Positions 14,254 to 27,211 of a DNA stretch of 64,000 bases are shown here, one piece after another (within the stretch, counting starts at the first letter, position 1; every line of letters begins with the position of its first letter). This DNA is from Gammaproteobacteria bacterium (GTDB taxonomy: Bacteria; Pseudomonadota; Gammaproteobacteria; Pseudomonadales; JAUIET01): positions 1 to 64,000 of the forward strand of contig JAUIET010000004.1 in NCBI GenBank assembly GCA_030429735.1. Reading direction: 5' to 3'. The position numbers were made by a program, and so were the translations under genes. Below the pieces are notes generated by a model. It saw only the letters and a program-made list of their open reading frames with translations, did no database searches and was not told where the DNA came from.

Positions 14254-14404
14254 GTTGACCTCGGCTAATGACTATTAGGTGTTTTCGGTATGCACGCCCT
14301 AGCCTACAGCAGCCTGACGGGTCTGGAAAGTCTTGCCTCTTCGACACTTCCCCAGCCCACTGTTTATGCGGTATTGTGGCGCCAGTTTATTGTGGAAAGA
14401 TGGT

Positions 14405-16492
14405 ATGAACCCGCGATACAAAGCGCTTTTCGAACCCATAAAAATTGGACCTGTTACGGCACCCAATCGCTTTTACCAGGTACCACATGCCAGCGGTATG
14501 ACGGAGTCAAATCCTCGTGTTCGAGCCGCGTTTCGGGCAACTAAAGCAGAAGGAGGCTGGGGGGTTGTTTGCACAGGCGCTGTATCAACCCACCCATCCT
14601 CAGATGATAGCCCGCTGCCTTTCGCGCGTCTTTGGGATGACAACGATGTTCGCTCACATGCCCTGGTAACTGACGCTGTCCATGAGCACGGCGCATTAGC
14701 CGGCGTGGAGCTATGGCATGGTGGTGCGGCTGTGATGAATCGTACGTCCAGAATCAGTCCCTATTCACCGTCGGGCATCCCATGGGCTGCGACACATGTC
14801 GGCTTTATGGGGCTGCAAAAACCCCGAATTATGGATAAGAGTGACATACGCGATGTAATTAAATGGCAGGTCGCTGCGGCCTTGCGGGCTCGGTCTGCCG
14901 GGTTCGATATTGTCTATATATACGCCGGCATGGGGTATCTGGGGTATCAGTTCTTGATGCCGGAAACGAATCAACGAAGCGATGAATATGGCGGCAGCGT
15001 TGCCAAACGTACACGTTTTGCTCGTGAGCTGATTGAAGCCACTAAAGAGGCGGTAGGAGACACCTGCGGGGTTGCTCTGCGCATCAGTCTCGAAGAGTTA
15101 CGCGGCAGACCCAGCGATCATTATGAGTCGCAAGCGCATGAGGTAGTTAGCCTGTTGAGCGATGTTCCTGACCTTTGGGATGTGAAGATGGATTCCAGCC
15201 CAACCGATTGTGGTGCATCACGTTTTCGTCCTGAGGGCGCTCACGAACCTGTGATCGATTTTGTAAAGCAATGCACTGCTGTGCCAGTCGTTGGCGTAGG
15301 GCGCTTTACATCGCCAGATTCCATGGTGTCGCAGTTAAATCGCGGCGTACTGGATCTGGTCGGCGCCGCGCGGCCCTCGATCGCAGACCCATTCTTGCCT
15401 AACAAAATAGCGGAAGGCCGAGAGGATGATATTCGTGAATGCATTGGCTGTAATATTTGCATTGCGTCCTGGCACGATGGCGTGCCCATTCGTTGTACAC
15501 AGAATGCAACCATAGGCGAAGAATGGCGCAAGGGTTGGCATCCCGAGCGCGTTACCAAAAACGTAACTAATGAATCGCTGTTGGTGATTGGTGGCGGTCC
15601 CGCCGGGCTGGAGGCCGCGCTGATTGCTGCGCGACGTGGTTATGACGTTATGATTGCAGAAGCAGCGACAGAATTTGGCGGTCGGGTGAATTTTGAGGCG
15701 CAGTTACCTGGCTTGGCCAGCTGGGGGCGAGTGACTGACTATCGTATGAATGCCTTGAAACAAATGCCTAACGTGCAGTTGTTCCCAGCCAATCGCTTGC
15801 AGGCAGATGAGGTGCTGGAGATTGGTGCGTGCAACGTTGCGATTGCGACCGGCTCGTCATGGACTCGGCATTTGTATTCGTCGCTTGAATTGCCGGTCAA
15901 CGAGCTGAATGGTCCAAACGTGTTCACGCCAGATGATTTTGCTGCAGGGCGTTGGCCAAGTGCCGGCCCCGTTCTGGTGTTCGACTTCGATAATTATTAT
16001 CTGGGCGGGGTATGTGCTGAAGCACTCAGTAAGCATGGGTTAAAGGTGCATTATGCCACGCCTGCGGGGCACGCATCGGCGTGGACTATCATGACGAACG
16101 AGCAGCCGTACGTGCATCAGGCGCTAGCACACAACGGCATTGAACTGAGTACTTTGACGCTGTTGGACTCTTTTGACGGAGAGCACGCGGTGCTGAGTGA
16201 CCTATTCTCGTCCGAAACGCGCCGGATTGATGCTGCCGCGGTGGTTATTGTGGGAATGCGATTACCCGCAGACGATTTATACCATCAACTACTGGAACGC
16301 GAAGCAGAGCATGCACAGGCGGGCATCCATACCCTGCAGCGCATCGGTGACGCAAGAGCACCTGGCGCTATTGCACATGCTGTGTATTCGGGCCACGAAT
16401 ACGCTCGTCAGCTAGGTGACACCGAACACGCTTTGTACCTCCGGGATTTACCGATTACTGAGCATGAACCAGGACCGGCCAGTGTGAATTGA
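14405..16492 (+). CDS. Trimethylamine/dimethylglycine dehydrogenase-like flavoprotein
   Basis: This 695-residue protein has an N-terminal Old Yellow Enzyme barrel (about 1-380) and a C-terminal FAD/NAD-type domain beginning LLVIGGGPAGLEAAL. A 4Fe-4S site is formed by Cys346, 349, 352 and 364 (CIGCNIC, then IRCTQN). This matches trimethylamine dehydrogenase, DgcA and stachydrine demethylase relatives, which oxidatively remove N-methyl groups. The Cys that covalently binds FMN in trimethylamine dehydrogenase is Ala29 here (FYQVPHA), so FMN should be non-covalent. ATG 14405 is chosen because homologues start just before YKALFEPIKIG. It heads the operon with the antiporter, MttB homologue and Rieske oxygenase. 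A dimethylglycine or N-methyl amino acid substrate is likely but unproven. Confidence 0.88.
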   Translation: MNPRYKALFEPIKIGPVTAPNRFYQVPHASGMTESNPRVRAAFRATKAEGGWGVVCTGAVSTHPSSDDSPLPFARLWDDNDVRSHALVTDAVHEHGALAGVELWHGGAAVMNRTSRISPYSPSGIPWAATHVGFMGLQKPRIMDKSDIRDVIKWQVAAALRARSAGFDIVYIYAGMGYLGYQFLMPETNQRSDEYGGSVAKRTRFARELIEATKEAVGDTCGVALRISLEELRGRPSDHYESQAHEVVSLLSDVPDLWDVKMDSSPTDCGASRFRPEGAHEPVIDFVKQCTAVPVVGVGRFTSPDSMVSQLNRGVLDLVGAARPSIADPFLPNKIAEGREDDIRECIGCNICIASWHDGVPIRCTQNATIGEEWRKGWHPERVTKNVTNESLLVIGGGPAGLEAALIAARRGYDVMIAEAATEFGGRVNFEAQLPGLASWGRVTDYRMNALKQMPNVQLFPANRLQADEVLEIGACNVAIATGSSWTRHLYSSLELPVNELNGPNVFTPDDFAAGRWPSAGPVLVFDFDNYYLGGVCAEALSKHGLKVHYATPAGHASAWTIMTNEQPYVHQALAHNGIELSTLTLLDSFDGEHAVLSDLFSSETRRIDAAAVVIVGMRLPADDLYHQLLEREAEHAQAGIHTLQRIGDARAPGAIAHAVYSGHEYARQLGDTEHALYLRDLPITEHEPGPASVN

Positions 16493-16539: not shown

Positions 16540-16570
16540 ATGCGAAAGAAAGAGCATAATGCGAAAGAAA
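16540..16570 (+). repeat. 12-bp direct duplication at the antiporter start
   Basis: ATGCGAAAGAAA occurs at 16540-16551 and again at 16559-16570, offset by 19 bases and so in different frames. The first copy opens a 12-codon reading frame that ends with TAA at 16576-16578, inside the start of the antiporter gene. TGGTATACT just upstream (16501-16509) resembles an extended -10 promoter element. Confidence 0.5.
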
Positions 16571-18475
16571 AACGATAAAAAGACCTGCTGTCTCTGGCTT
16601 GTGCTGCTGCTTCCCATGATGGCACTGGCTGATACCAACACGATTCGATTTGAGCTGCAAGCTCCGGAAATCGTCCACAGTGGCGAAGAGTTCACCGTGT
16701 CCATCAAGCCAGTAAAGATCACGCCGGCACAAGCGCAGGGTGCGAGCGTCAGTTTGCGACACGGGTCCAGCGCTGTTCCAGGCAAAGTTGTCAAGCTCTC
16801 GGCGCATGATGTCACCGACACCAGCTATGTTGTAGGGACGGGCGGGCACGCGGTACTCATCGCAGAGTTAGCCGATGGCACTGCTGTGTCTGCGGACGTC
16901 AGAGCCATTCCGGGCTGGTTGTCTTTGGTGCCGCCATTGATCGCAATCGGTCTGGCATTGTGGCTAAAGACCGTTATTCCCTCATTATTCCTGGGCCTAT
17001 GGGCAGGCGTGATGATCCAGAATGGTTTCACGGTGTCGTCCTTTTTCGGTTCGGCACTGGAATCGTTTTCAGTGCGTATCCATGGAGTGATGACCGACCC
17101 TGATCACGTGTCGATCATTCTGTTCAGCTGCATGATTGGCGGTCTGGTCAGTATTATTTCGCGAAACGGGGGCATGCTTGGCGTGATCAATGTAGTGATT
17201 CGCTGGGCAAATACGGCACGGCGCGGGCAATTGTCTGTCTGGTTTTTGGGCTTGTGTATTTTCTTTGATGACTACACGAACACCATGGTGGTGGGTAACT
17301 CAGTCAGGTCGGTCACCGACAAGCTGAAAATTTCTCGACAGAAGTTGGCCTATCTGGTTGATTCAACCGCTGCACCGGTGGCCTGTGTGGCGGTCATGAC
17401 TACATGGATAGGCTACGAAGTGAGTTTGATCGACGCTGCCAGCGCTGGGCTGGAAGGCTTTACCGAGTCTGCCTATACAGTCTTTCTTAATTCTCTGGCA
17501 TACAGTTTCTATCCGTTCCTGGCAATATTCTTTGTCTATCTGGTTGCTTCCAGCGGTCGTGATTTCGGTCCCATGTTGAAAGCTGAGCAGCTGAGTTATC
17601 TCAACGATGGTCCGCCGCTGGCTGCGTCCAACAAGAGCAGTTCGCATGACGCGTTAAACCCGATGGTCGGCGCTGAGTTACCCACTCGCGCGATCAATGC
17701 GGTATTGCCTATATTGGTTTTGGTGTTCAGTTGCATGGCAGGGTTGTATGTGACGGGTGAGGGCGACAGTATCCGCGACATTATGAGCACCGCTGATGCG
17801 TACAAATCACTGATGTGGAGTTCTTTTGCTGCCGTTGCGGCGGCTCTGTTACTCACGGTCGCGCAAGGCTTGTTAACTCTGGAAGAAGTGGTGGATGCCT
17901 GGACGCAGGGCGCCCTGATCATGGTGGCACCGATGATCATTCTTATTCTGGCCTGGGCTCTGTCTGATGTCACCAGTATATTGCATACTGCTGATTATCT
18001 TGTACGACTGGGCGGTGACAGTCTCACGCCTGCCAGCATTCCCGCCTGGACATTCGTTTTGTCCGCGGCCGCCGCGTTTGCCACCGGCTCAAGCTGGGGA
18101 GTAATGGCCATTGTACTTCCATTAATCCTGCCGGTTGCCTGGGCCGTTCTGGGCGCCGATGGTACGGTAGCTGCAGACAGCATGCACATCATTTATTCAA
18201 CTGTGGCGTGCGTGCTAGCCGGGTCCGTATGGGGTGATCACTGTTCACCTATTTCTGATACCACGGTTTTGTCGTCCATGGCATCAGGCTGTGATCATAT
18301 AGAACACGTGCGAACCCAAATTCCTTACGCAATGACGGTCGGCGGTGTGGCGTTGTTTGGCGGAATTATTCCGTCTGCGCTTGGGGTTCCGTGGTGGCTG
18401 GCAATGGCGCTGTGTGCGCTGTTTCTAATACTGATTTTACGATTTTTTGGTAGGCCCGCGTATGAGCCGTCGTAA
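16559..18475 (+). CDS. NhaC-family antiporter with an N-terminal periplasmic domain
   Basis: This 638-residue protein has a signal-like segment (about 6-24), then about 90 residues predicted to be exported and beta-rich (IRFELQAPEIVHSGEEFTV onward), then roughly 11-12 membrane helices. The membrane part carries NhaC family segments such as FFDDYTNTMVVG, VDSTAAPVACVAV, and VWGDHCSPISDTTVLSS. Family members exchange Na+ for H+ or carry organic ions. The extra exported domain is not part of standard NhaC. Its place between demethylase genes suggests transport of a methylated amine or pH/Na+ adjustment. The MttB start overlaps its end by 14 bases. Confidence 0.88.
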   Translation: MRKKNDKKTCCLWLVLLLPMMALADTNTIRFELQAPEIVHSGEEFTVSIKPVKITPAQAQGASVSLRHGSSAVPGKVVKLSAHDVTDTSYVVGTGGHAVLIAELADGTAVSADVRAIPGWLSLVPPLIAIGLALWLKTVIPSLFLGLWAGVMIQNGFTVSSFFGSALESFSVRIHGVMTDPDHVSIILFSCMIGGLVSIISRNGGMLGVINVVIRWANTARRGQLSVWFLGLCIFFDDYTNTMVVGNSVRSVTDKLKISRQKLAYLVDSTAAPVACVAVMTTWIGYEVSLIDAASAGLEGFTESAYTVFLNSLAYSFYPFLAIFFVYLVASSGRDFGPMLKAEQLSYLNDGPPLAASNKSSSHDALNPMVGAELPTRAINAVLPILVLVFSCMAGLYVTGEGDSIRDIMSTADAYKSLMWSSFAAVAAALLLTVAQGLLTLEEVVDAWTQGALIMVAPMIILILAWALSDVTSILHTADYLVRLGGDSLTPASIPAWTFVLSAAAAFATGSSWGVMAIVLPLILPVAWAVLGADGTVAADSMHIIYSTVACVLAGSVWGDHCSPISDTTVLSSMASGCDHIEHVRTQIPYAMTVGGVALFGGIIPSALGVPWWLAMALCALFLILILRFFGRPAYEPS

Positions 18476-19979
18476 GCGCAGGCCAACACGCACCAGAGGT
18501 GCTATTGAACAATTACCCTGGCAGCAACCGGTCAATACGTTCGCGCCGTTAGAAATTATTTCCGAGGATCAGGTTGAGAGTATCATCAATGCCGCATTGA
18601 AAATACTCGACGAAAAAGGCATGCGTTTTTTGCACGCGGGTAGCCGTGCTTTGTTACGCGAGAAAGGTGCGAGTGTTTGCGAATCTTCGCAAAACGTGCA
18701 TTTCCCACCAGTGCTGGTCCGCGAAAGCATCGCCTTGGCACCCGCCGAATTTACACTCAGGGCACGCAACCCGGAGCACAATCTTCGCCTGGGTGGCCAG
18801 CATATGATTTTTGCGGCTGTTGGTGGCCCAGCGTTTTGCAGCGATCTTGACAACGGCCGGCGCACTGGAAATTATCAAGACCTGTGCAATTATTTTCGCT
18901 TGATTCAAAGTCTGAACGTAGTGCACCAGGAAGGTGGCATGGCGTTTGAACCCATGGATTTGCCTGCACAAACACGCCACCTCGATACGCACCTAGCGCA
19001 ATATCGCTTGCTCGACAAAAATGCGCAAGCCTATCCGTTAGGGCATGATCGTACCGTCGATGGTATTGAAATGGCGTGCATTGCCTTAGGCATAAATCGT
19101 GATCAATTGCGCAAGACTCCAGCAGTTCTTGGCATTATCAATACCAATTCTCCGATGCAGCTTGATGTGCCAATGACTGAGGCGATTTTGGAGTTGTCGG
19201 CAGCGGGGCAGGTGAGTTGCATTACGCCATTTACCCTCGCCGGTTCCATGAGCCCAGCCACACTTGCGGGCACCCTTGTGCAGCAAACGGCGGAGGTTTT
19301 GGCAGCGGCAACGCTCGCTCAGGTTCACAATCCAGGCGCACCCATCATGTATGGTGCTTTTGCATCCAATGTGGATATGAAAAGCGGCGCACCTGCATTG
19401 GGGACGCCGGAGTACACTAAGGCGACACTTGCCAGTGGCCAGATTGCTAGGCGGCTTGGTCTGCCGTTTCGGTCCAGCAACACCACTGTATCAAATTGCG
19501 TCGACGCGCAATCTGCGTATGAAAGCCAAATGTCATTGTGGGGTGCAATGATGGGGCACGCCCATTTGGTTAATCATGCGGCGGGCTGGCTTGAAGGTGG
19601 GTTAACTGCATCCTTTGAAAAGCTGATACTTGATGCTGAAATGTTGCAAATGATGCTGGCCACTATGCAACCGATTGAAACCAATGATGATCAAATGGCG
19701 ATGCAATCAATTATGGACGTAGAGCCAGGCGGTCATCACTTCGGTACCGCGCATACTTTGGAACGCTATGACACAGCGTTTTATACGCCTTTGATGTCGG
19801 ACCGCCAGAATTTTGAGAACTGGCAGGAAGCGGGCTCTATTGACTCGACGATGAGAGCAAATCAGATTTGGAAACAGTTGTTGCACGAGTACGAACAGCC
19901 GCCCCTGGACCAGGCAATTGATGACGCTCTAGTGGCCTATGTTACCCAGCGAAAAGAGCATTATGCCGAGCAATCCTGA
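18462..19979 (+). CDS. Non-pyrrolysine MttB-superfamily methyltransferase
   Basis: This 505-residue protein belongs to the trimethylamine methyltransferase (MttB) superfamily, with segments LKILDEKGMRFLHAGSRALL, FAAVGGPAFCSDLDNGRRTG (shortened), ITPFTLAGSMSPATLAGTL and NTNSPMQLD. Enzymes of this superfamily transfer a methyl group from a quaternary or tertiary amine to a corrinoid protein. Pyrrolysine versions need an in-frame amber codon; this gene has none, so it belongs to the group that includes glycine betaine methyltransferase (MtgB), with proline betaine and carnitine enzymes as relatives. ATG 18462 overlaps the antiporter gene by 14 bases. No corrinoid protein or activase gene lies in the window. 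Confidence 0.88.
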   Translation: MSRRKRRPTRTRGAIEQLPWQQPVNTFAPLEIISEDQVESIINAALKILDEKGMRFLHAGSRALLREKGASVCESSQNVHFPPVLVRESIALAPAEFTLRARNPEHNLRLGGQHMIFAAVGGPAFCSDLDNGRRTGNYQDLCNYFRLIQSLNVVHQEGGMAFEPMDLPAQTRHLDTHLAQYRLLDKNAQAYPLGHDRTVDGIEMACIALGINRDQLRKTPAVLGIINTNSPMQLDVPMTEAILELSAAGQVSCITPFTLAGSMSPATLAGTLVQQTAEVLAAATLAQVHNPGAPIMYGAFASNVDMKSGAPALGTPEYTKATLASGQIARRLGLPFRSSNTTVSNCVDAQSAYESQMSLWGAMMGHAHLVNHAAGWLEGGLTASFEKLILDAEMLQMMLATMQPIETNDDQMAMQSIMDVEPGGHHFGTAHTLERYDTAFYTPLMSDRQNFENWQEAGSIDSTMRANQIWKQLLHEYEQPPLDQAIDDALVAYVTQRKEHYAEQS

Positions 19980-21141
19980 TTACCCCGGACTGCAGTCACC
20001 CACTGCAACACTGCCAGCCAGTTGGTATCTTGATCCCGATCAATTTGAGCGGGAACTGGATGCGGTTTGGTATCGACATTGGCACTATGTGTGCAGAGCG
20101 GAGGACATTGCCAACGCAGGGGATTATCGTACCGTAGTGATTGGCAACCAAAATATCATCGTATTGCGTGATGAAACAGGTCATTTGAAAGCATATTTCA
20201 ATACCTGCCGGCACCGCGGTTCAATACTCCTAACCGAGGAATCCGGGAAACTCGACAAAGCCAGTCGCATACTGTGCCCCTACCATCGTTGGGCGTATTC
20301 CTCTCAAGGCGACCTGCTGGCCACTGGCACTGGCACGCCGCCCGCGGGTTTCAGCCGAGCGGAGTACGGATTGTATTCTCTGCCGATTGATGAATGGTCC
20401 GGTTTCGTTTTTATCAATCTGGACGCGCATTACGCCACCGCACTGGCAGATAGTTTTGACGAATATTCGGTGTCTTTGGCTAACTGGCCGCTGACCGATG
20501 TGCGTCGCGGAGACACTTTTGAGACAGTGCTGAACTGCAACTGGAAGTTGTTCTGGGAAAATTTTAATGAGTGTCTGCATTGCCCCAATTTGCACCCTGA
20601 TTTATGCAGCGTGGTGCCAATTTACAAGCGCGGAATTATGGAGGCGTTTGACGACCCAGATTGGCGCCCCGGTAGCAGTGATGAGCCTGCACTGGCCGGC
20701 GGAATTGCGGATGATGCCGAGACCTGGTCATGGGGTGGACGTTCGACAGGGCATCATTTCAGTGAACTGACTGAGCAGGAGCGCAGAACAGGGCACCACT
20801 ATGCGATGTTGCTACCGTCAATGTTTATTGTGGGCCATGTTGACCACGTGCGGACTGTTCAATTGCGCCCATTGTCAGCGGTTAAAACGCATCTGCGCGC
20901 AGACTGGTATTTCCCTCAGGCTGCGTTGGATGACCAGACGCTGGACATTTCACATTTTACGTCGTTTGCAAAACAGGTTATTGACGAAGACGGCCGTGCT
21001 GCTGAACTGAATCAGCAGGGGCTGACCAATCGCGCTCATGCGCAGGGTAGCCTGATGGCAGAAGAGTACGACGTGCATCGCTTTCAACAGTGGGTCAGAC
21101 AGTGCTTGCAGTCACATACAACATCTCAAGCCCCAAGGTAG
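19963..21141 (+). CDS. Rieske non-heme iron oxygenase, betaine demethylase type
   Basis: This 392-residue oxygenase alpha subunit has a Rieske 2Fe-2S site (Cys82, His84, Cys105, His108) and a mononuclear iron site in NECLHCPNLH (Glu203 bridging, His206, His211). The NECLHCP form with Glu rather than Asp is known from GbcA, carnitine and stachydrine demethylases, which hydroxylate an N-methyl group and release formaldehyde. ATG 19963 overlaps the MttB-like gene by 17 bases. The reductase partner (GbcB-like) is not in the window. The 3' end overlaps the convergent agmatinase gene by 47 bases. Glycine betaine or a related quaternary amine is the likely substrate. Confidence 0.9.
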   Translation: MPSNPDYPGLQSPTATLPASWYLDPDQFERELDAVWYRHWHYVCRAEDIANAGDYRTVVIGNQNIIVLRDETGHLKAYFNTCRHRGSILLTEESGKLDKASRILCPYHRWAYSSQGDLLATGTGTPPAGFSRAEYGLYSLPIDEWSGFVFINLDAHYATALADSFDEYSVSLANWPLTDVRRGDTFETVLNCNWKLFWENFNECLHCPNLHPDLCSVVPIYKRGIMEAFDDPDWRPGSSDEPALAGGIADDAETWSWGGRSTGHHFSELTEQERRTGHHYAMLLPSMFIVGHVDHVRTVQLRPLSAVKTHLRADWYFPQAALDDQTLDISHFTSFAKQVIDEDGRAAELNQQGLTNRAHAQGSLMAEEYDVHRFQQWVRQCLQSHTTSQAPR

Positions 21142-22024
21142 CGGCTGCCAGTGCTGTAATATCGGCGTGGTCGTAACACGGTGCTACCTCGACGATATCC
21201 ATGGCCACCAGGTTTAGTCCGCCCAGTCCGCGAATGATTTTTAGTGCCTTGTCGGTAGTCATCCCGCCAACGACCGGAGTGCCGGTGCCAGGCGCAAAAG
21301 CGGGGTCCAGGCCATCAATATCAAACGTCAGGTAGACCGGCAAATCGCCAACCATTTCGCGTATCTTCTCCACGATCGCCATTGCCGACATATCATTTAC
21401 AGTAGCGGCGTCCAGCACCGTAAATTCATGGTTCTCCACATTGTATTCGGTGCGGATACCAAGCTGAATGGTGTGTTCTGCGGAAATCAAACCTTCTTTG
21501 GGAGCGTGGTAGAACATGCAGCCGTGGTCGTAACGATCCGAATCCTCGTAGGTGTCTGTATGGGCATCGAAGTGAATCATGGCAACTGTGCCATGCACCT
21601 TGTTGACCGCACGCAGCAACGGCAAAGTGACAAAGTGATCGCCGCCAAAAGACAGTAGTTTTTTACCCTGTTGCATAATCTCAGTGGCCGTGGCGGTTAC
21701 AGTTGCCAGCATGGTGTCACTTTCGCCAGGCGGGAATTCAAGATCGCCATAATCAACGACCGAGATCCGATCGAATGCATTGAAGCGCCATGGCCAGCGT
21801 TTTTCCTCCCAGCGCAAATTCGCTGAGGCGCGCCGAATGCCTTGCGGGCCCTGGCGCGTGCCGGCACGGCCAGTTGTGCCCAGGTCATAAGGAATACCCA
21901 TTACAACGACATCGGCGTTCTGTATGTCCCTGCTCAATGGTATGTCCCTGCTCAATGGGGTGGACAAATAGCCAAACGTATTTGCAAACATGGAGTGGCT
22001 GGAAAATTCAGATATATCAGACAT
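21095..22024 (-). CDS. speB: Agmatinase/ureohydrolase family enzyme
   Basis: This 309-residue protein has the binuclear manganese motifs of the arginase/agmatinase family: SFGGDH, HFDAHTDTY, and TFDIDGLDPAFAPGTGTP. The product would be urea plus putrescine from agmatine; guanidinobutyrase or guanidinopropionase activity is also possible, because these enzymes share all motifs. Its position beside polyamine genes favours agmatine. An 18-bp tandem duplication near the 5' end doubles the hexapeptide PLSRDI at about residues 23-34. The 3' end overlaps the convergent Rieske gene. The symbol is tentative. Confidence 0.88.
   Translation of the reverse strand: MSDISEFSSHSMFANTFGYLSTPLSRDIPLSRDIQNADVVVMGIPYDLGTTGRAGTRQGPQGIRRASANLRWEEKRWPWRFNAFDRISVVDYGDLEFPPGESDTMLATVTATATEIMQQGKKLLSFGGDHFVTLPLLRAVNKVHGTVAMIHFDAHTDTYEDSDRYDHGCMFYHAPKEGLISAEHTIQLGIRTEYNVENHEFTVLDAATVNDMSAMAIVEKIREMVGDLPVYLTFDIDGLDPAFAPGTGTPVVGGMTTDKALKIIRGLGGLNLVAMDIVEVAPCYDHADITALAAATLGLEMLYVTASTV
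21923..21958. repeat. 18-bp perfect tandem duplication inside the agmatinase gene
   Basis: TATGTCCCTGCTCAATGG is present at 21923-21940 and immediately again at 21941-21958. It keeps the reading frame and duplicates six residues (PLSRDI) in the N-terminal region before the first core strand. A slippage origin is likely. Confidence 0.85.
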
Positions 22025-22206
22025 TTAGGGCTTCTACTTGTAAGGGTGCCATTGCAACTGTGTGGGCGTGAATCAGTCAAACCTTCCGTTGTTAATGGAA
22101 AACAGGTAAGTTGTCACCGACGGCCTTAATGATACGTTAAAGCCCTGCAAACTGAAACGCGAGCCAATCGCAGATCGCAGAGTTACCAGCGGAGTAGTGT
22201 CACAGC

Positions 22207-23088
22207 ATGAGTACAGTGCACGGGGATGTTTCGCTAAAAACCTTGCTGCTGCCTTTGCTGCAACACCCGACCATTGCCGCCATCATCAAATGGTCGGTGT
22301 ATGGTATTTTGGTATTCAACGCCATCATCTATCTGATGGATGATATTGGTGCCTACCGAAGCTCAATCGGAGCCGGTGCCTCGTTTGCAGACGTTCTGGA
22401 AACTTTTTCAACCACCATCGACACCATGGCCTGGTTGGGCCTGATATTTCTTCTGGAACTCGAAACCTGGTTGTTGTCTGACGAAGTGCTTGAAAGCTGG
22501 GTTGGTAAACTTCTGTTATGGCTGCGCGTTATCTGCTACATCTCTATCGCTTATGCTGCCTATGGCTATGCGACGCAAGCGCAGGACAATTACAAAGTAA
22601 CTGTACGTGATGATGTGCAACATCTTTGCGATGTGGCCGGTCACGGACTGTTTCTACAAACAGATAGCATTGACTACACAAGCATAGAACAGACCAATTG
22701 CCATGAGCTATCGGTCGGGCCTCCGTTCTATAGAATTGATAACAAGGTTTCGCTGATTGACGCACCCTCGCTACAACGCGTGCAGACTATGGAGTGGATT
22801 AACGTGGTGAATGCGTTTGTCTGGGTGATTGTGGTATTGCTGATTGAAGCTGAACTCAGGCTGCAATGGAACGATCGGTATGGTACTCGCTTGCTGAAAG
22901 GCATTCAGCAATCAAAAACGGTGTTCTACCTGGTTCTTTGGGGGTGCGCGTTCGCATGGTTGTTCTTTGGTTACCGTTTGTATGGCCTGGACGCGATCGT
23001 GTGGATCGCAGGATTTTGGGCTATTGAGCTGAATCTCGCGGATTGGGAGCAAGAAAGAGTGGCCGAGCTACAGCAGCAGGACGCATAG
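22207..23088 (+). CDS. Multi-pass membrane protein of unknown function
   Basis: This 293-residue protein has about six or seven hydrophobic segments, for example KWSVYGILVFNAIIYLM, MAWLGLIFLLELETWLL, LLLWLRVICYISIAYAA, and VVNAFVWVIVVLLIEAEL. A polar loop of about 80 residues with three cysteines (around 135-175) separates two membrane halves. Charged residues inside helices (LLELE, LIEAEL, AIELN) recall ion channels or voltage-sensor-like proteins, but I cannot name a family. It is divergent from the agmatinase gene and upstream of the polyamine aminotransferase, with a 111-base gap. Confidence 0.8.
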   Translation: MSTVHGDVSLKTLLLPLLQHPTIAAIIKWSVYGILVFNAIIYLMDDIGAYRSSIGAGASFADVLETFSTTIDTMAWLGLIFLLELETWLLSDEVLESWVGKLLLWLRVICYISIAYAAYGYATQAQDNYKVTVRDDVQHLCDVAGHGLFLQTDSIDYTSIEQTNCHELSVGPPFYRIDNKVSLIDAPSLQRVQTMEWINVVNAFVWVIVVLLIEAELRLQWNDRYGTRLLKGIQQSKTVFYLVLWGCAFAWLFFGYRLYGLDAIVWIAGFWAIELNLADWEQERVAELQQQDA

Positions 23089-23199
23089 CTTTTTCCGGCG
23101 AAGGGACTTCAAAGTGCGCCATACTAATACATTCATTCTGACACACTCGCTGTGATAGCATCAGCAGCATCAATATCAGGTTAATAAGGGCCGATAATA

Positions 23200-24573
23200 A
23201 TGAGTTCGACAAGCGCACGCGAGAATTGGCAAGAACTGGATAAAAGCAGCCATTTTCACCCGTTTACTGATCTGACCGAGTATGCCGCAAAAGGTGGACG
23301 AGTTGTTAATCAGGCCGAGCACGTATACATTCATGATGCCGACGGTAACCGTATTCTGGATGGAATGTCGGGTTTGTGGTGTTGCAATCTGGGCTATACG
23401 CAGCCAGCTATCGTGGAGGCGGTATATGAGCAGTTACAAACGCTGCCGTACTACAACAGTTTTTTTAATTGCTCGAATGACAAAGCGATTGAACTATCAG
23501 CCGCATTGCTAAAAGTGATGCCAGCGCATTTCAGAAAGATATTTTTTACCAACTCAGGTTCTGAAGCTAACGACACCAATATACGACTGGTGCATCGGTA
23601 CTTCGATTTGCTGGAAAAACCCGAAAAGAAAATCATCATCAGCCGCAAAAATGCCTACCACGGCAGCACTATTGCCGCTGCCAGCCTGGGTGGCATGAAG
23701 GGAATGCATGAGCAGTTTACCCGCCTGCCTTATGTGCATCATATACAGCAGCCACACTGGTTTGATGAAGGTGCAGATATGCCGGCCGATGAGTTTGGTC
23801 GTGCAGCTGCGCGGCAATTGGAACAGGCGATAGATGAGTTGGGTGAAGACAAGGTCGCTGCTTTTATCGCGGAACCTGTACAGGGCGCGGGTGGCGTTAT
23901 TGTGCCGCCAGAAACTTACTGGCCGGCGATTAAAGAGATATGTGAGCAGCGCGACCTGTTGCTGATCAGTGATGAAGTGATATGTGGCTTTGGCAGAACC
24001 GGTTCCTGGTTTGGTTGCGAGACCTATGGTTTTAAACCGGATCTAATGACGTTTGCCAAAGCAGTGACAAATGGTTTTCAACCATTGGGCGGAGTGGCCA
24101 TCGGCGATAAAGTCGCAAGCGTGTTAACCTCCGGGGGTGGCGAATTTGCACACGGTTTTACGTACTCCGGGCACCCGGCGGCCTGTGCGGCTGGTCTTGC
24201 TACCCTGGATATATTACAGCAACAAAATATGGTGCAACATGTCTCCGAGTCAATTGGACCGTATTTTCGTCGGCGATGGAGTGAACTGGCAGAGCACCCG
24301 ATTGTTGGCCAGGTACGTTCGCAAGGTATGTTTGCAGCGCTGGAATTGGTGCAAGACAAAGGCAGCCGCGAGCGCCTGGCACCTGACAGTGCTGGCGCAA
24401 TCACCTGCCGGGACGCGGCGGTGGCCAGTGGGCTCATGGTACGGGCTGTTGGCGATTCGATGATCAGCGCGCCTCCGTTTGTTTGTTCTGCAGATGAGAT
24501 TGACCTATTGGTCGGGCGTTTGCATCAGGCGTTGGATAAAACAGCGGCTGCTTACGGTATCAAAAGCCCATGA
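23200..24573 (+). CDS. Class III aminotransferase, putrescine/polyamine type
   Basis: This 457-residue PLP enzyme matches the omega-amino acid:pyruvate and putrescine:pyruvate aminotransferases (SpuC-like). Landmarks are GMSGLWCCNLGY, FFTNSGSEANDTNIRLVH (shortened), the Asp-containing LISDEVICGFGRTG, and the PLP lysine in TFAKAVTNGFQPLGGV. It should transfer the amino group of putrescine or another omega-amine to pyruvate. The downstream glutamine synthetase-like gene starts in a 4-base ATGA overlap. The neighbours make a polyamine substrate likely. Beta-alanine or taurine transaminase is the alternative. Confidence 0.9.
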   Translation: MSSTSARENWQELDKSSHFHPFTDLTEYAAKGGRVVNQAEHVYIHDADGNRILDGMSGLWCCNLGYTQPAIVEAVYEQLQTLPYYNSFFNCSNDKAIELSAALLKVMPAHFRKIFFTNSGSEANDTNIRLVHRYFDLLEKPEKKIIISRKNAYHGSTIAAASLGGMKGMHEQFTRLPYVHHIQQPHWFDEGADMPADEFGRAAARQLEQAIDELGEDKVAAFIAEPVQGAGGVIVPPETYWPAIKEICEQRDLLLISDEVICGFGRTGSWFGCETYGFKPDLMTFAKAVTNGFQPLGGVAIGDKVASVLTSGGGEFAHGFTYSGHPAACAAGLATLDILQQQNMVQHVSESIGPYFRRRWSELAEHPIVGQVRSQGMFAALELVQDKGSRERLAPDSAGAITCRDAAVASGLMVRAVGDSMISAPPFVCSADEIDLLVGRLHQALDKTAAAYGIKSP

Positions 24574-25898
24574 ACATAACTACCGACAAACCCGGTCAAC
24601 TACCGGCCTCGCTTGAGTTGTTGATCAGCGACATCAATGGCGTACCGCGCGGCAAAACAATCGATAGCAGCGCAATTGAAGGAGAGGAATTGCCTCACTT
24701 TCCGAAGGCAGTTTTATTGCAGACCATTAACGGCGATTACTGCAGTGCCATGGAAACGCTGAACCCGAAAGACGATGACCTGCTTCTGAAGCCTGACTGG
24801 ACCACTTATAGATCGACTCCCTGGAAGAAGGAAACGGGGCAGGTGATTTGCGAGTCGATTGACAAAGACACCGGGCAAGCCATTGAGTTTGATTCGCGCA
24901 ACGTGCTAAAACGTTTGGTTCAACTGTATAACGAACGCGGTCTGTTCCCAGTTGTGGCCCCTGAGCTTGAGTTCTATTTCCTGGAGCCTAATCAGAAAGG
25001 CTCTTTGGAATTGACTCCGGCAATTGCCGAGGACGGTTCTACTGAGGCGGGTGGTGAAGCCTTTAGCCCTGACTCGCTCGATAAATACAGTGCGCTCATT
25101 GAAGATCTTAACGAGCTGTGTGACCAGACTGGCCTTGCGACCAGTGCGTTGGTGCACGAAATGGGACCGGCGCAGATAGAGCTGAACGTTGACCATGGCG
25201 ATGTGATGGATCGTATCGATCAATTGTTTTTGCTAAAGCGTCTGGTAAAGGCGTGCGCTGTGCGGCATGGAAAATTAGCAAGCTTTATGGCCAAACCGAT
25301 GGCTAACGAGGCCGGCAATGGCTTGCATACGCATTGCAGCATGCTCGATTCTGATGGAAACAACGTATTTGCGCTCGAGAATGGTCAGGCCCCGCAAATG
25401 TTAAGAGACTTCATTGGTGGCCTGCAAACCTACCTGCCCAAAGCATTTGCGTTGATCGCACCTAATATAAACAGTTATCGGCGTTTCGTGCCGGGCGTAT
25501 CAGCGCCGATAAATCTGGAGTGGGGTTATGACAATCGAACCACTGGATTTCGTGTGCCATTTGGTCCGGATTCGGCCGGGCGTATCGAGAACAGGGTTGC
25601 CGGGGCTGACGCTAACCCCTATTTATTAATGGCGGCCAACCTGGCCTGCGGTCTGCTGGGTATCAAGGAAAACCTTGAGCCCAGCGCCGCGCATGAGGGC
25701 GATGCCTATGATGGTGCGGCTGATTTACCGGAACACCTGTATCCAGCATTGAGCGCACTTGAGCGCTGCGCACCATTAGTTGGGCTGTTGGGCGATGATT
25801 TCGTCCAGGCCTTTCTGTCTGCGAAGCGATCTGAGTTGAGTCATTTTGGTAAGCATGTCTCGGCGTGGGAGATCGCCTATCTTGGAAATCAGTTGTAG
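24570..25898 (+). CDS. puuA: Glutamine synthetase-family gamma-glutamylpolyamine synthetase
   Basis: This 442-residue protein has the GlnA catalytic fold, with VAPELEFYF, ELNVDHGDVMDRIDQ, FMAKPMANEAGNGLHTHCS (shortened) and IENRVAGADANPYL. It resembles PuuA/SpuI, which ligate glutamate to putrescine using ATP, rather than housekeeping glutamine synthetase. The adenylylation tyrosine region typical of GlnA is absent near the C-terminus. It sits between a class III aminotransferase and a PuuB-like oxidase, which fits the gamma-glutamyl route. Other amines such as spermidine or monoamines could be used. Confidence 0.88.
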   Translation: MNITTDKPGQLPASLELLISDINGVPRGKTIDSSAIEGEELPHFPKAVLLQTINGDYCSAMETLNPKDDDLLLKPDWTTYRSTPWKKETGQVICESIDKDTGQAIEFDSRNVLKRLVQLYNERGLFPVVAPELEFYFLEPNQKGSLELTPAIAEDGSTEAGGEAFSPDSLDKYSALIEDLNELCDQTGLATSALVHEMGPAQIELNVDHGDVMDRIDQLFLLKRLVKACAVRHGKLASFMAKPMANEAGNGLHTHCSMLDSDGNNVFALENGQAPQMLRDFIGGLQTYLPKAFALIAPNINSYRRFVPGVSAPINLEWGYDNRTTGFRVPFGPDSAGRIENRVAGADANPYLLMAANLACGLLGIKENLEPSAAHEGDAYDGAADLPEHLYPALSALERCAPLVGLLGDDFVQAFLSAKRSELSHFGKHVSAWEIAYLGNQL

Positions 25899-25900
25899 CA

Positions 25901-27211
25901 ATGTCGGCGGCGGGACAACAAGGTGGCAATTCCTCACTGGGCTATGACGAGTCGTGGTACTACGCAAGTCTTGGTAGCGTAGATCATTACCCGTCATTGA
26001 ATGGTGACATTGATGTTGAGGTCTGTGTTATTGGGGGCGGTTATACGGGGCTTTCTGCCGCAATAGAATTAACCGACCAAGGCCATTCAGTAGCCGTTCT
26101 GGAAGCCCACAAAATCGGTGCCGGTGCGTCAGGGCGTAATGGCGGAGTGCTGGGGATGGGGCAGCGCAAAGACCAGCTTGAGCTGGAACGTTGGGTTGGC
26201 AAGGAAAAAGCGCAGCAGTTCTGGCAGATCGCCTGCGATGCCAATCAGTTGGTGCGTGAACGCATAAATAAGCACAACATTGACTGCGACCTTCGTGATG
26301 GTTCGCTGACGGTTGCCCATCGGCAGCGGTATGAGGGCGAACTCTGGGATTACGTTGACCACCTTGAAGCGTATTATGCCTACACAGGGAAGCGCAAAGT
26401 GGATCGCGACGAAGTGCGCGCGATGTTGGGCGTTGATACTTACTTCGGTGGTTACCTTGATAGCAACGCCGCACACATACACCCCTTAAAGCTTGCGCAA
26501 GGCCTTGCCAGGGTGGCTGATAAACAAGGTGCCAGCCTTTTCGAGGCAAGTGCTGCGCTGAGCTATCTGGAAGGCGACGATTGCATTCAGGTGGAGACCA
26601 GTAAAGGGCGTGTTCGCTGCCAGTACCTGATTCTGGCCTGCAATGGGTATCTTGGCAATTTTGAGAAAGCAGCCGCTGTCTATCAAATGCCAATCAATAA
26701 TTTTATTTTGGCAACGGAGCCGCTTGGTGAAAAGCGTGGTCAGTTGATCAACCGGGATAACGTTGCTGTAGTTGACACCCGTTTCGTGGTTAATTACTTC
26801 CATAATTCGCCTGATCATCGGCTGATATTCGGTGGCGGAGAGAACTACTCATCACGGTTTCCTAAAGATCTGAAGAAATTCGTACAAGCCAAAATGCTAG
26901 AGGTGTACCCGGATCTGGGGGACGTAAAGATTGATTACGCATGGGGTGGCACCCTTGCAATTACGCTGAAACGTATGCCCCATTTTGGACGTAAGGGCAA
27001 ACGTGTTTACTGGGCGCAAGGGTATTCAGGCCATGGTATTGCAATGGCTAATATGGGCGGAAAGTTGGTGGCAGAAGCCATACATCATCAGTCTGACGGA
27101 TTTGAGCTGTTTGCCGGGCTTAAACATCAGGCGTTTCCTGGCGGCACATTGTTGCGTTGGCCGGGCCTGGTGGCTGGCATGCTTTATTATTCGATGTTGG
27201 ATAGATTCTAG
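25901..27211 (+). CDS. puuB: FAD-dependent oxidoreductase, PuuB-like
   Basis: This 436-residue protein has an N-terminal FAD-binding motif, VCVIGGGYTGLSAAIEL, followed by the GASGRNGGVLGMGQRKDQ segment typical of the gamma-glutamylputrescine oxidase (PuuB/OrdL) family. It should oxidise a gamma-glutamylated amine to the aldehyde, with release of ammonia and hydrogen peroxide. The end of the previous gene (TAG 25896-25898) is 2 bases before this ATG; the upstream ATG at 25865 lies within puuA and is rejected. PuuC and PuuD equivalents are not in this window. Confidence 0.87.
   Translation: MSAAGQQGGNSSLGYDESWYYASLGSVDHYPSLNGDIDVEVCVIGGGYTGLSAAIELTDQGHSVAVLEAHKIGAGASGRNGGVLGMGQRKDQLELERWVGKEKAQQFWQIACDANQLVRERINKHNIDCDLRDGSLTVAHRQRYEGELWDYVDHLEAYYAYTGKRKVDRDEVRAMLGVDTYFGGYLDSNAAHIHPLKLAQGLARVADKQGASLFEASAALSYLEGDDCIQVETSKGRVRCQYLILACNGYLGNFEKAAAVYQMPINNFILATEPLGEKRGQLINRDNVAVVDTRFVVNYFHNSPDHRLIFGGGENYSSRFPKDLKKFVQAKMLEVYPDLGDVKIDYAWGGTLAITLKRMPHFGRKGKRVYWAQGYSGHGIAMANMGGKLVAEAIHHQSDGFELFAGLKHQAFPGGTLLRWPGLVAGMLYYSMLDRF

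Follow-up and report, generated by a model that had tools for sequence, protein, structure and literature searches.

We analyzed a 64,000-nucleotide stretch of a gammaproteobacterial genome (contig JAUIET010000004.1, positions 1 to 64,000; hereafter the window) that carries a gene for a non-pyrrolysine member of the MttB methyltransferase superfamily at 18462 to 19979. The joint best explanation of the data, to which we give a probability of about 0.75, is that this protein is a corrinoid-dependent betaine methyltransferase that shares, in trans, the MtbC corrinoid protein encoded on another contig of the same genome (C2), with its operon partners carrying out the steps proposed below. The MttB gene is the third of four genes on the plus strand, in the order flavoprotein, NhaC-type transporter, MttB, and Rieske oxygenase, and a convergent agmatinase gene ends the run:

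14405..16492, plus strand, FMN/FAD/4Fe-4S amine dehydrogenase of the trimethylamine/histamine dehydrogenase family (frame opens at 14333, likely ATG at 14405)
16559..18475, plus strand, NhaC-type Na+/H+ antiporter family transporter, 638 amino acids
18462..19979, plus strand, MttB superfamily methyltransferase, non-pyrrolysine, 505 amino acids, PF06253 match
19939..21141, plus strand, Rieske oxygenase alpha subunit, 400 amino acids (likely start at 19963)

The MttB frame gives an uninterrupted translation of 505 residues followed by a terminal TGA. An earlier reading made from the window's letters (the sequence-only reading) had stated that these 505 codons hold no in-frame TAG and that the protein is a non-pyrrolysine MttB relative, and both statements stand: we counted zero TAG codons, and the protein matched Pfam MTTB (PF06253) with 606.7 bits (cut-off 25, E 2.8e-182) over residues 3 to 500. 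MTTB was its sole Pfam match, and solved MttB and MtgB chains aligned across almost its full length. Because both kinds of match are nearly full-length, we do not consider the assignment a chance one. Against the pyrrolysine MttB equivalog TIGR02369, the protein reached 289 bits with a cut-off of 525, and in the alignment Thr341 occupies the pyrrolysine column of 7xcl. The ATG at 18462 is a reasonable start, with an alternative TTG opening 15 bases upstream at 18447. The first 14 bases of the MttB gene lie within the transporter gene, and about 17 to 41 bases at its end are shared with the Rieske gene.

The genome (5.03 Mb, 24 contigs, 97% complete) holds three MttB homologues, on the window's contig (C17), on C2, and on C20. 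Whole-genome searches with PF02607, PF00809, and PF14574 bore out the sequence-only reading that the window encodes no MtbC, RamA, or tetrahydrofolate methyltransferase. The only PF02607 match on C17 (C17:392727) and the only PF00809 match there (C17:391833) lie in the same 1239-amino-acid MetH-like frame, and RACo_C_ter (PF14574) had no match anywhere on this contig. The genome search for corrinoid proteins, which had been proposed as a check, returned one complete set, on C2, in the order MttB, MtbC, DUF1638 protein, pterin-binding methyltransferase, and RamA:

C2:29074, MttB, opens the cluster
C2:30697, MtbC, PF02310 and PF02607, 238 amino acids
C2:32609, pterin-binding methyltransferase, PF00809, 301 amino acids
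C2:34627, RamA

No stand-alone corrinoid protein besides this MtbC is encoded. The genome thus has both a corrinoid protein and a reactivase. The C2 domain set is that of MtgB, MtgC, MtgD, and the reactivation proteins of Ruegeria pomeroyi and P. inhibens (PMC12478193; PMC5764234), and mutant fitness in P. inhibens links the DUF1638 family to B12 reactivation (PMC5764234).

Partners of this kind accompany MttB across genomes. We found relatives of the window protein at 52 loci in named genomes and searched 50 genomes for partners. RamA was present in 48 (missing from G003 and G023), PF02607 in 47 (in G003 as a MetH-like frame only), and stand-alone MtbC in 46. The four genomes lacking the latter (G003, G038, G043, and G046), whose completeness is not stated, again gave no stand-alone MtbC in a PF02310 re-search. 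A class sample of 369 genomes, with an MttB threshold of E up to 1e-20, contained MttB in 22 genomes, RamA in 25, and both in 20. RamA thus occurred in 20/22 genomes with MttB versus 5/347 without it (Fisher p 2e-26, a value overstated by the relatedness of the genomes). One genome with MttB and without RamA, G390, is 71% complete and has MtbC adjoining MttB.

We mapped 82 stretches bearing relatives by tblastn, with flanks of unequal length and several loci from one genome. Of these, 78 carry an MttB belonging to the wider clade of the window protein, and MtbC lay within the mapped flanks of two of the 78. An unlinked corrinoid gene is therefore usual in this branch. The two linked cases (L134 and L138; MttB rows L075 and L078) encode MttB directly followed by MtbC, a pterin methyltransferase, and RamA. 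Their MttB proteins are 51% and 48% identical to that of the window and fall inside the 88-row clade described below, and their MtbC proteins are 74 to 75% identical to the C2 MtbC. This linkage therefore shows which corrinoid protein belongs with the window branch. The sequence-only reading had left the methyl acceptor unassigned and had offered tetrahydrofolate or a distant corrinoid protein. Given the C2 set, the co-occurrence, and the MtbC-linked relatives, the acceptor no longer has to be left blank, the distant corrinoid protein is the option borne out, and tetrahydrofolate as an equally likely direct acceptor is not upheld, since the relatives' genomes nearly always hold MtbC and RamA.

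There is direct precedent for a single corrinoid protein that serves several MttB enzymes (PMC8604678; PMC12155760). In Eubacterium limosum, the genes for the non-pyrrolysine enzymes MtpB, MtcB, and MtyB lie apart from those of one shared corrinoid protein and its reactivase (MtqC, MtqA, and RamQ being the shared partners), and the methyl group passes from quaternary amine to corrinoid to tetrahydrofolate, as we propose here (PMC8604678). However, E. limosum is an anaerobe, and the parts of that paper drawn on here mention no operon with a Rieske oxygenase or amine dehydrogenase. R. pomeroyi MtgB1 and MtgB2 offer a second parallel: they are proteobacterial and aerobic, their PF06253 genes are unlinked from MtgC/MtgD, and up to seven such genes occur per genome (PMC12478193). 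The substrate tested there was glycine betaine, whereas in the window MttB the pocket is altered and the gene belongs to an operon with Rieske and trimethylamine dehydrogenase-type genes. A corrinoid gene missing beside an MttB homologue is thus normal in aerobic Proteobacteria and no sign of a corrinoid-independent enzyme.

Several points weigh against the best explanation. G003, which carries a relative of 67% identity (L012) and whose completeness is not given, lacks both RamA and stand-alone MtbC; its B12-binding frames are MetH and longer ones. The other class-sample genome with MttB and without RamA, G392, is 98% complete; its one MttB is of the C20 type (28% identical to that of the window), and it has no stand-alone MtbC either. 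Co-occurrence is also no proof that the window paralogue, rather than the C2 MttB, uses MtbC. Finally, no Rieske reductase was recognized among the annotated window genes; the genome was not searched for one.

To place the protein among its relatives, we used a quick LG+G4 tree of 120 rows, which has long branches and only 2qne and 4yyc as MtgB references. The window MttB fell in a 15-row clade (support 92) that joins L064-L066 and L072-L073 with support 92 and is nested in an 88-row clade (support 100). The C2 MttB and the S. meliloti structure 4yyc belong to a separate 21-row MtgB-like clade (support 85). The superfamily placement suggested by the sequence-only reading was therefore obtained with respect to these two MtgB references, and it puts the window MttB outside the MtgB-like clade, in a large sister clade to which the literature covered here assigns no substrate.

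The pocket differs as well. Docking, rather than a bound structure, led to the proposal that Y94, N199, R309, and H345 bind glycine betaine in Desulfitobacterium hafniense MtgB (PMC6855144), and F353 also counts among the proposed pocket residues compared here. We recovered the named letters in 2qne, which verified the numbering. Compared with D. hafniense MtgB (2qne, 9yce), the window protein is of the same fold family and keeps N199, R309, and H345 (as N227, R337, and H372). However, Y94 and F353 align with G121 and G380, and the two proteins lie on separate tree branches. We counted the R309 and Y94 columns by reading alignment rows against the tree clades. At column 94, all 88 rows of the wider clade have Gly, Ala, Ser, or Cys, whereas 2qne and 19/21 rows of the MtgB-like clade have Tyr. 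As judged from these residues, the retained Arg and His would suit an acidic substrate, while the loss of Tyr94 suggests a betaine other than glycine betaine.

These data bear on the possibility that the window MttB is an ordinary MtgB, a second glycine betaine methyltransferase. It is 39% identical to the C2 MttB and keeps the pocket N, R, and H, and the L134 and L138 members of its clade are surrounded by genes for sarcosine oxidase or glycine betaine transporters. On the other hand, it lies outside the clade that holds the C2 enzyme and 4yyc, it has Gly in place of the proposed cation-pi residue Tyr94, and its operon has no sarcosine oxidase or dimethylglycine dehydrogenase genes. We consider this explanation unlikely; ordinary MtgB activity looks less likely than activity on another betaine. 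Glycine betaine is thus probably not the substrate and would be a better fit for the C2 enzyme.

Among the operon partners, the flavoprotein has all four Fe-S cysteines and matched trimethylamine dehydrogenase 1djq with E 4.5e-147, although it scored higher with 6l6j and with histamine dehydrogenases. Ala53 (numbered in the frame from 14333) replaces the Cys of the histamine dehydrogenase VPHC motif (3k30, 6de6), which we take to be the flavin-linking residue. The 6l6j structure likewise has Ala, and we found no paper naming this PDB entry. The structures nearest to the Rieske protein were 4qup, 3vca (the stachydrine demethylase Stc2), and 6y8j (the carnitine monooxygenase CntA; E 2.8e-32), with Stc2 and CntA matching mainly residues 25 to 228. 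Its Rieske motif starts at C90. Group V quaternary-amine oxygenases are marked by a bridging Glu and a Cys-x-x-Cys pair (PMC10952381), and the window protein has both, in the motif ECLHCPNLH at 211. Plasmid comparisons gave no characterized close relative for the NhaC or Rieske proteins, and among the openly licensed papers listed in our searches, mostly judged from the listing, none was seen to join MttB with a Rieske oxygenase or trimethylamine dehydrogenase in one operon.

The flavoprotein is tied to the window clade. After dropping L125, a duplicate of L010, we found it (at least 47% identity) in the flanks of 9/15 window-clade loci versus 0/66 other mapped stretches; weaker matches of 28 to 30% occurred in L025, L030, and L138. 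L010, a gammaproteobacterial metagenome-assembled genome locus of the same genus, carries all four genes of the operon in this order, at 57 to 76% identity. The flavoprotein gene adjoins MttB in Fuscovulum, Mesorhizobium, and G411 (L065, L066, and L131) and is near but divergent from it in L013-L016. Betaine transporters (BCCT) are found in the L013, L015, and L016 neighborhoods. A Rieske gene adjoins MttB in three separate settings: the window and L010, L017, and L067. Since the Rieske proteins of the window, L017, and L067 are only 26 to 39% alike over their aligned parts, this pairing may have more than one origin, or it may differ in meaning between settings.

From these genes and partners, we infer the methyl transfer, the choice of partner, the class of substrate, and the sequence in which the steps occur as follows. 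The NhaC-type protein would import a betaine, and MttB would move one of its N-methyl groups onto Co(I) of the C2 MtbC (MtbC/MtgC-type), common in trans to the window and C2 MttB proteins. The C2 pterin-binding methyltransferase would hand the methyl on to tetrahydrofolate, while RamA and the DUF1638 protein would keep the corrinoid reduced. The flavoprotein would then remove the next methyl by oxidizing the resulting tertiary amine. In the first step, the Group V Rieske oxygenase may stand in for MttB, using oxygen, on this substrate or a related one. Such a unit could combine two chemically unrelated first-step demethylases for one quaternary amine, the oxygen-independent MttB and the oxygen-dependent Rieske enzyme, with a common amine dehydrogenase and switch between them with redox state or B12 supply; we offer this switching module as a tentative idea. 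B12- and oxygen-dependent demethylation may then be alternatives for one compound in this operon, and knowing the identity of the betaine would reveal which methylated nitrogen compound is used by these marine bacteria.

The genes beyond the operon raise another explanation, that it degrades a methylated polyamine or guanidine and feeds the agmatinase and putrescine genes next door. The neighboring region (21095-27211) holds the agmatinase gene on the minus strand, divergent from a gene for a 293-amino-acid protein without a Pfam or NCBIfam match, together with class III aminotransferase, glutamine-synthetase-like, and DAO genes, a putative putrescine catabolism set. The gene order is kept in the same genus (L010), and MttB, glutamine synthetase, and DAO genes are adjacent in the alphaproteobacterial L058. 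However, the polyamine genes form separate convergent or divergent units and are not beside MttB in the other mapped window-clade loci, and known MttB-type substrates bear an acidic group (PMC12155760). We therefore regard a polyamine or guanidine substrate as improbable.

The Rieske and flavoprotein matches also allow a trimethylamine route, in which the Rieske protein, as a C-N cleaving enzyme like carnitine monooxygenase, sets trimethylamine free for the flavoprotein to act on as a trimethylamine dehydrogenase, with MttB either working on another quaternary amine or being a bystander. The resemblance of the Rieske protein to 6y8j as well as to stachydrine demethylase and that of the flavoprotein to 1djq favor it, whereas the higher flavoprotein scores with 6l6j and histamine dehydrogenases, and the Ala at the position of their Cys, do not. 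Moreover, flavoprotein-MttB pairs occur with no neighboring Rieske gene in L065, L066, and L131, which makes a bystander role for MttB unlikely. We find this route quite improbable. Direct, corrinoid-free transfer from a quaternary amine to tetrahydrofolate or homocysteine would agree with the window's lack of a corrinoid gene, with G003, and with a PF02574 homocysteine S-methyltransferase gene divergent from MttB in L013-L016, but it is very unlikely given the RamA and MtbC co-occurrence and the relatives inside MtbC clusters (for which we dropped transfer to tetrahydrofolate as the leading explanation), MTTB as the protein's sole Pfam match, and the family likeness of that homocysteine enzyme to MtgE, which acts through MtgC (PMC12478193).

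The homocysteine S-methyltransferase gene (L013:8514-9524, and at the same place in L014-L016) resembles a split methionine synthase module. At six loci, a second MttB paralogue of about 25% identity lies next to the MttB of the window type, arranged either in tandem or divergently, and these paralogues keep none of the proposed pocket N, R, and H:

L013:11529-13058, divergent MttB paralogue
L015:6720-8249, divergent MttB paralogue
L016:10637-12166, divergent MttB paralogue
L011:8193-9731, divergent MttB paralogue
L126:10873-12387, divergent MttB paralogue
L127:5962-7482, divergent MttB paralogue

Genes for a CocE/NonD hydrolase and a peptide-type ABC transporter recur beside MttB in L065, L066, L036, and L060, hinting at ester- or peptide-linked substrates for these relatives.

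The C20 MttB of the same genome (L063:9904-16442 region) is distant in the tree, has the pocket letters G-F-G-E-L, and immediately precedes two FAD/GcvT demethylase-like genes. Rfam searches of the window, L062, and L063 found no B12 or other riboswitch; the sole match was PYLIS_3 (40.3 bits, cut-off 38) inside the C20 MttB gene at L063:11026-11125, where there is no internal stop. G392 had raised the idea that the C20-type branch is corrinoid-free, which was not upheld: a dedicated search found C20-type MttB in 15/369 class genomes, 14 of them with RamA. Lastly, RamA-like frames in two different families each contain one in-frame TGA (G064:C14:24893-25654 and G382:C13:718968-719696).

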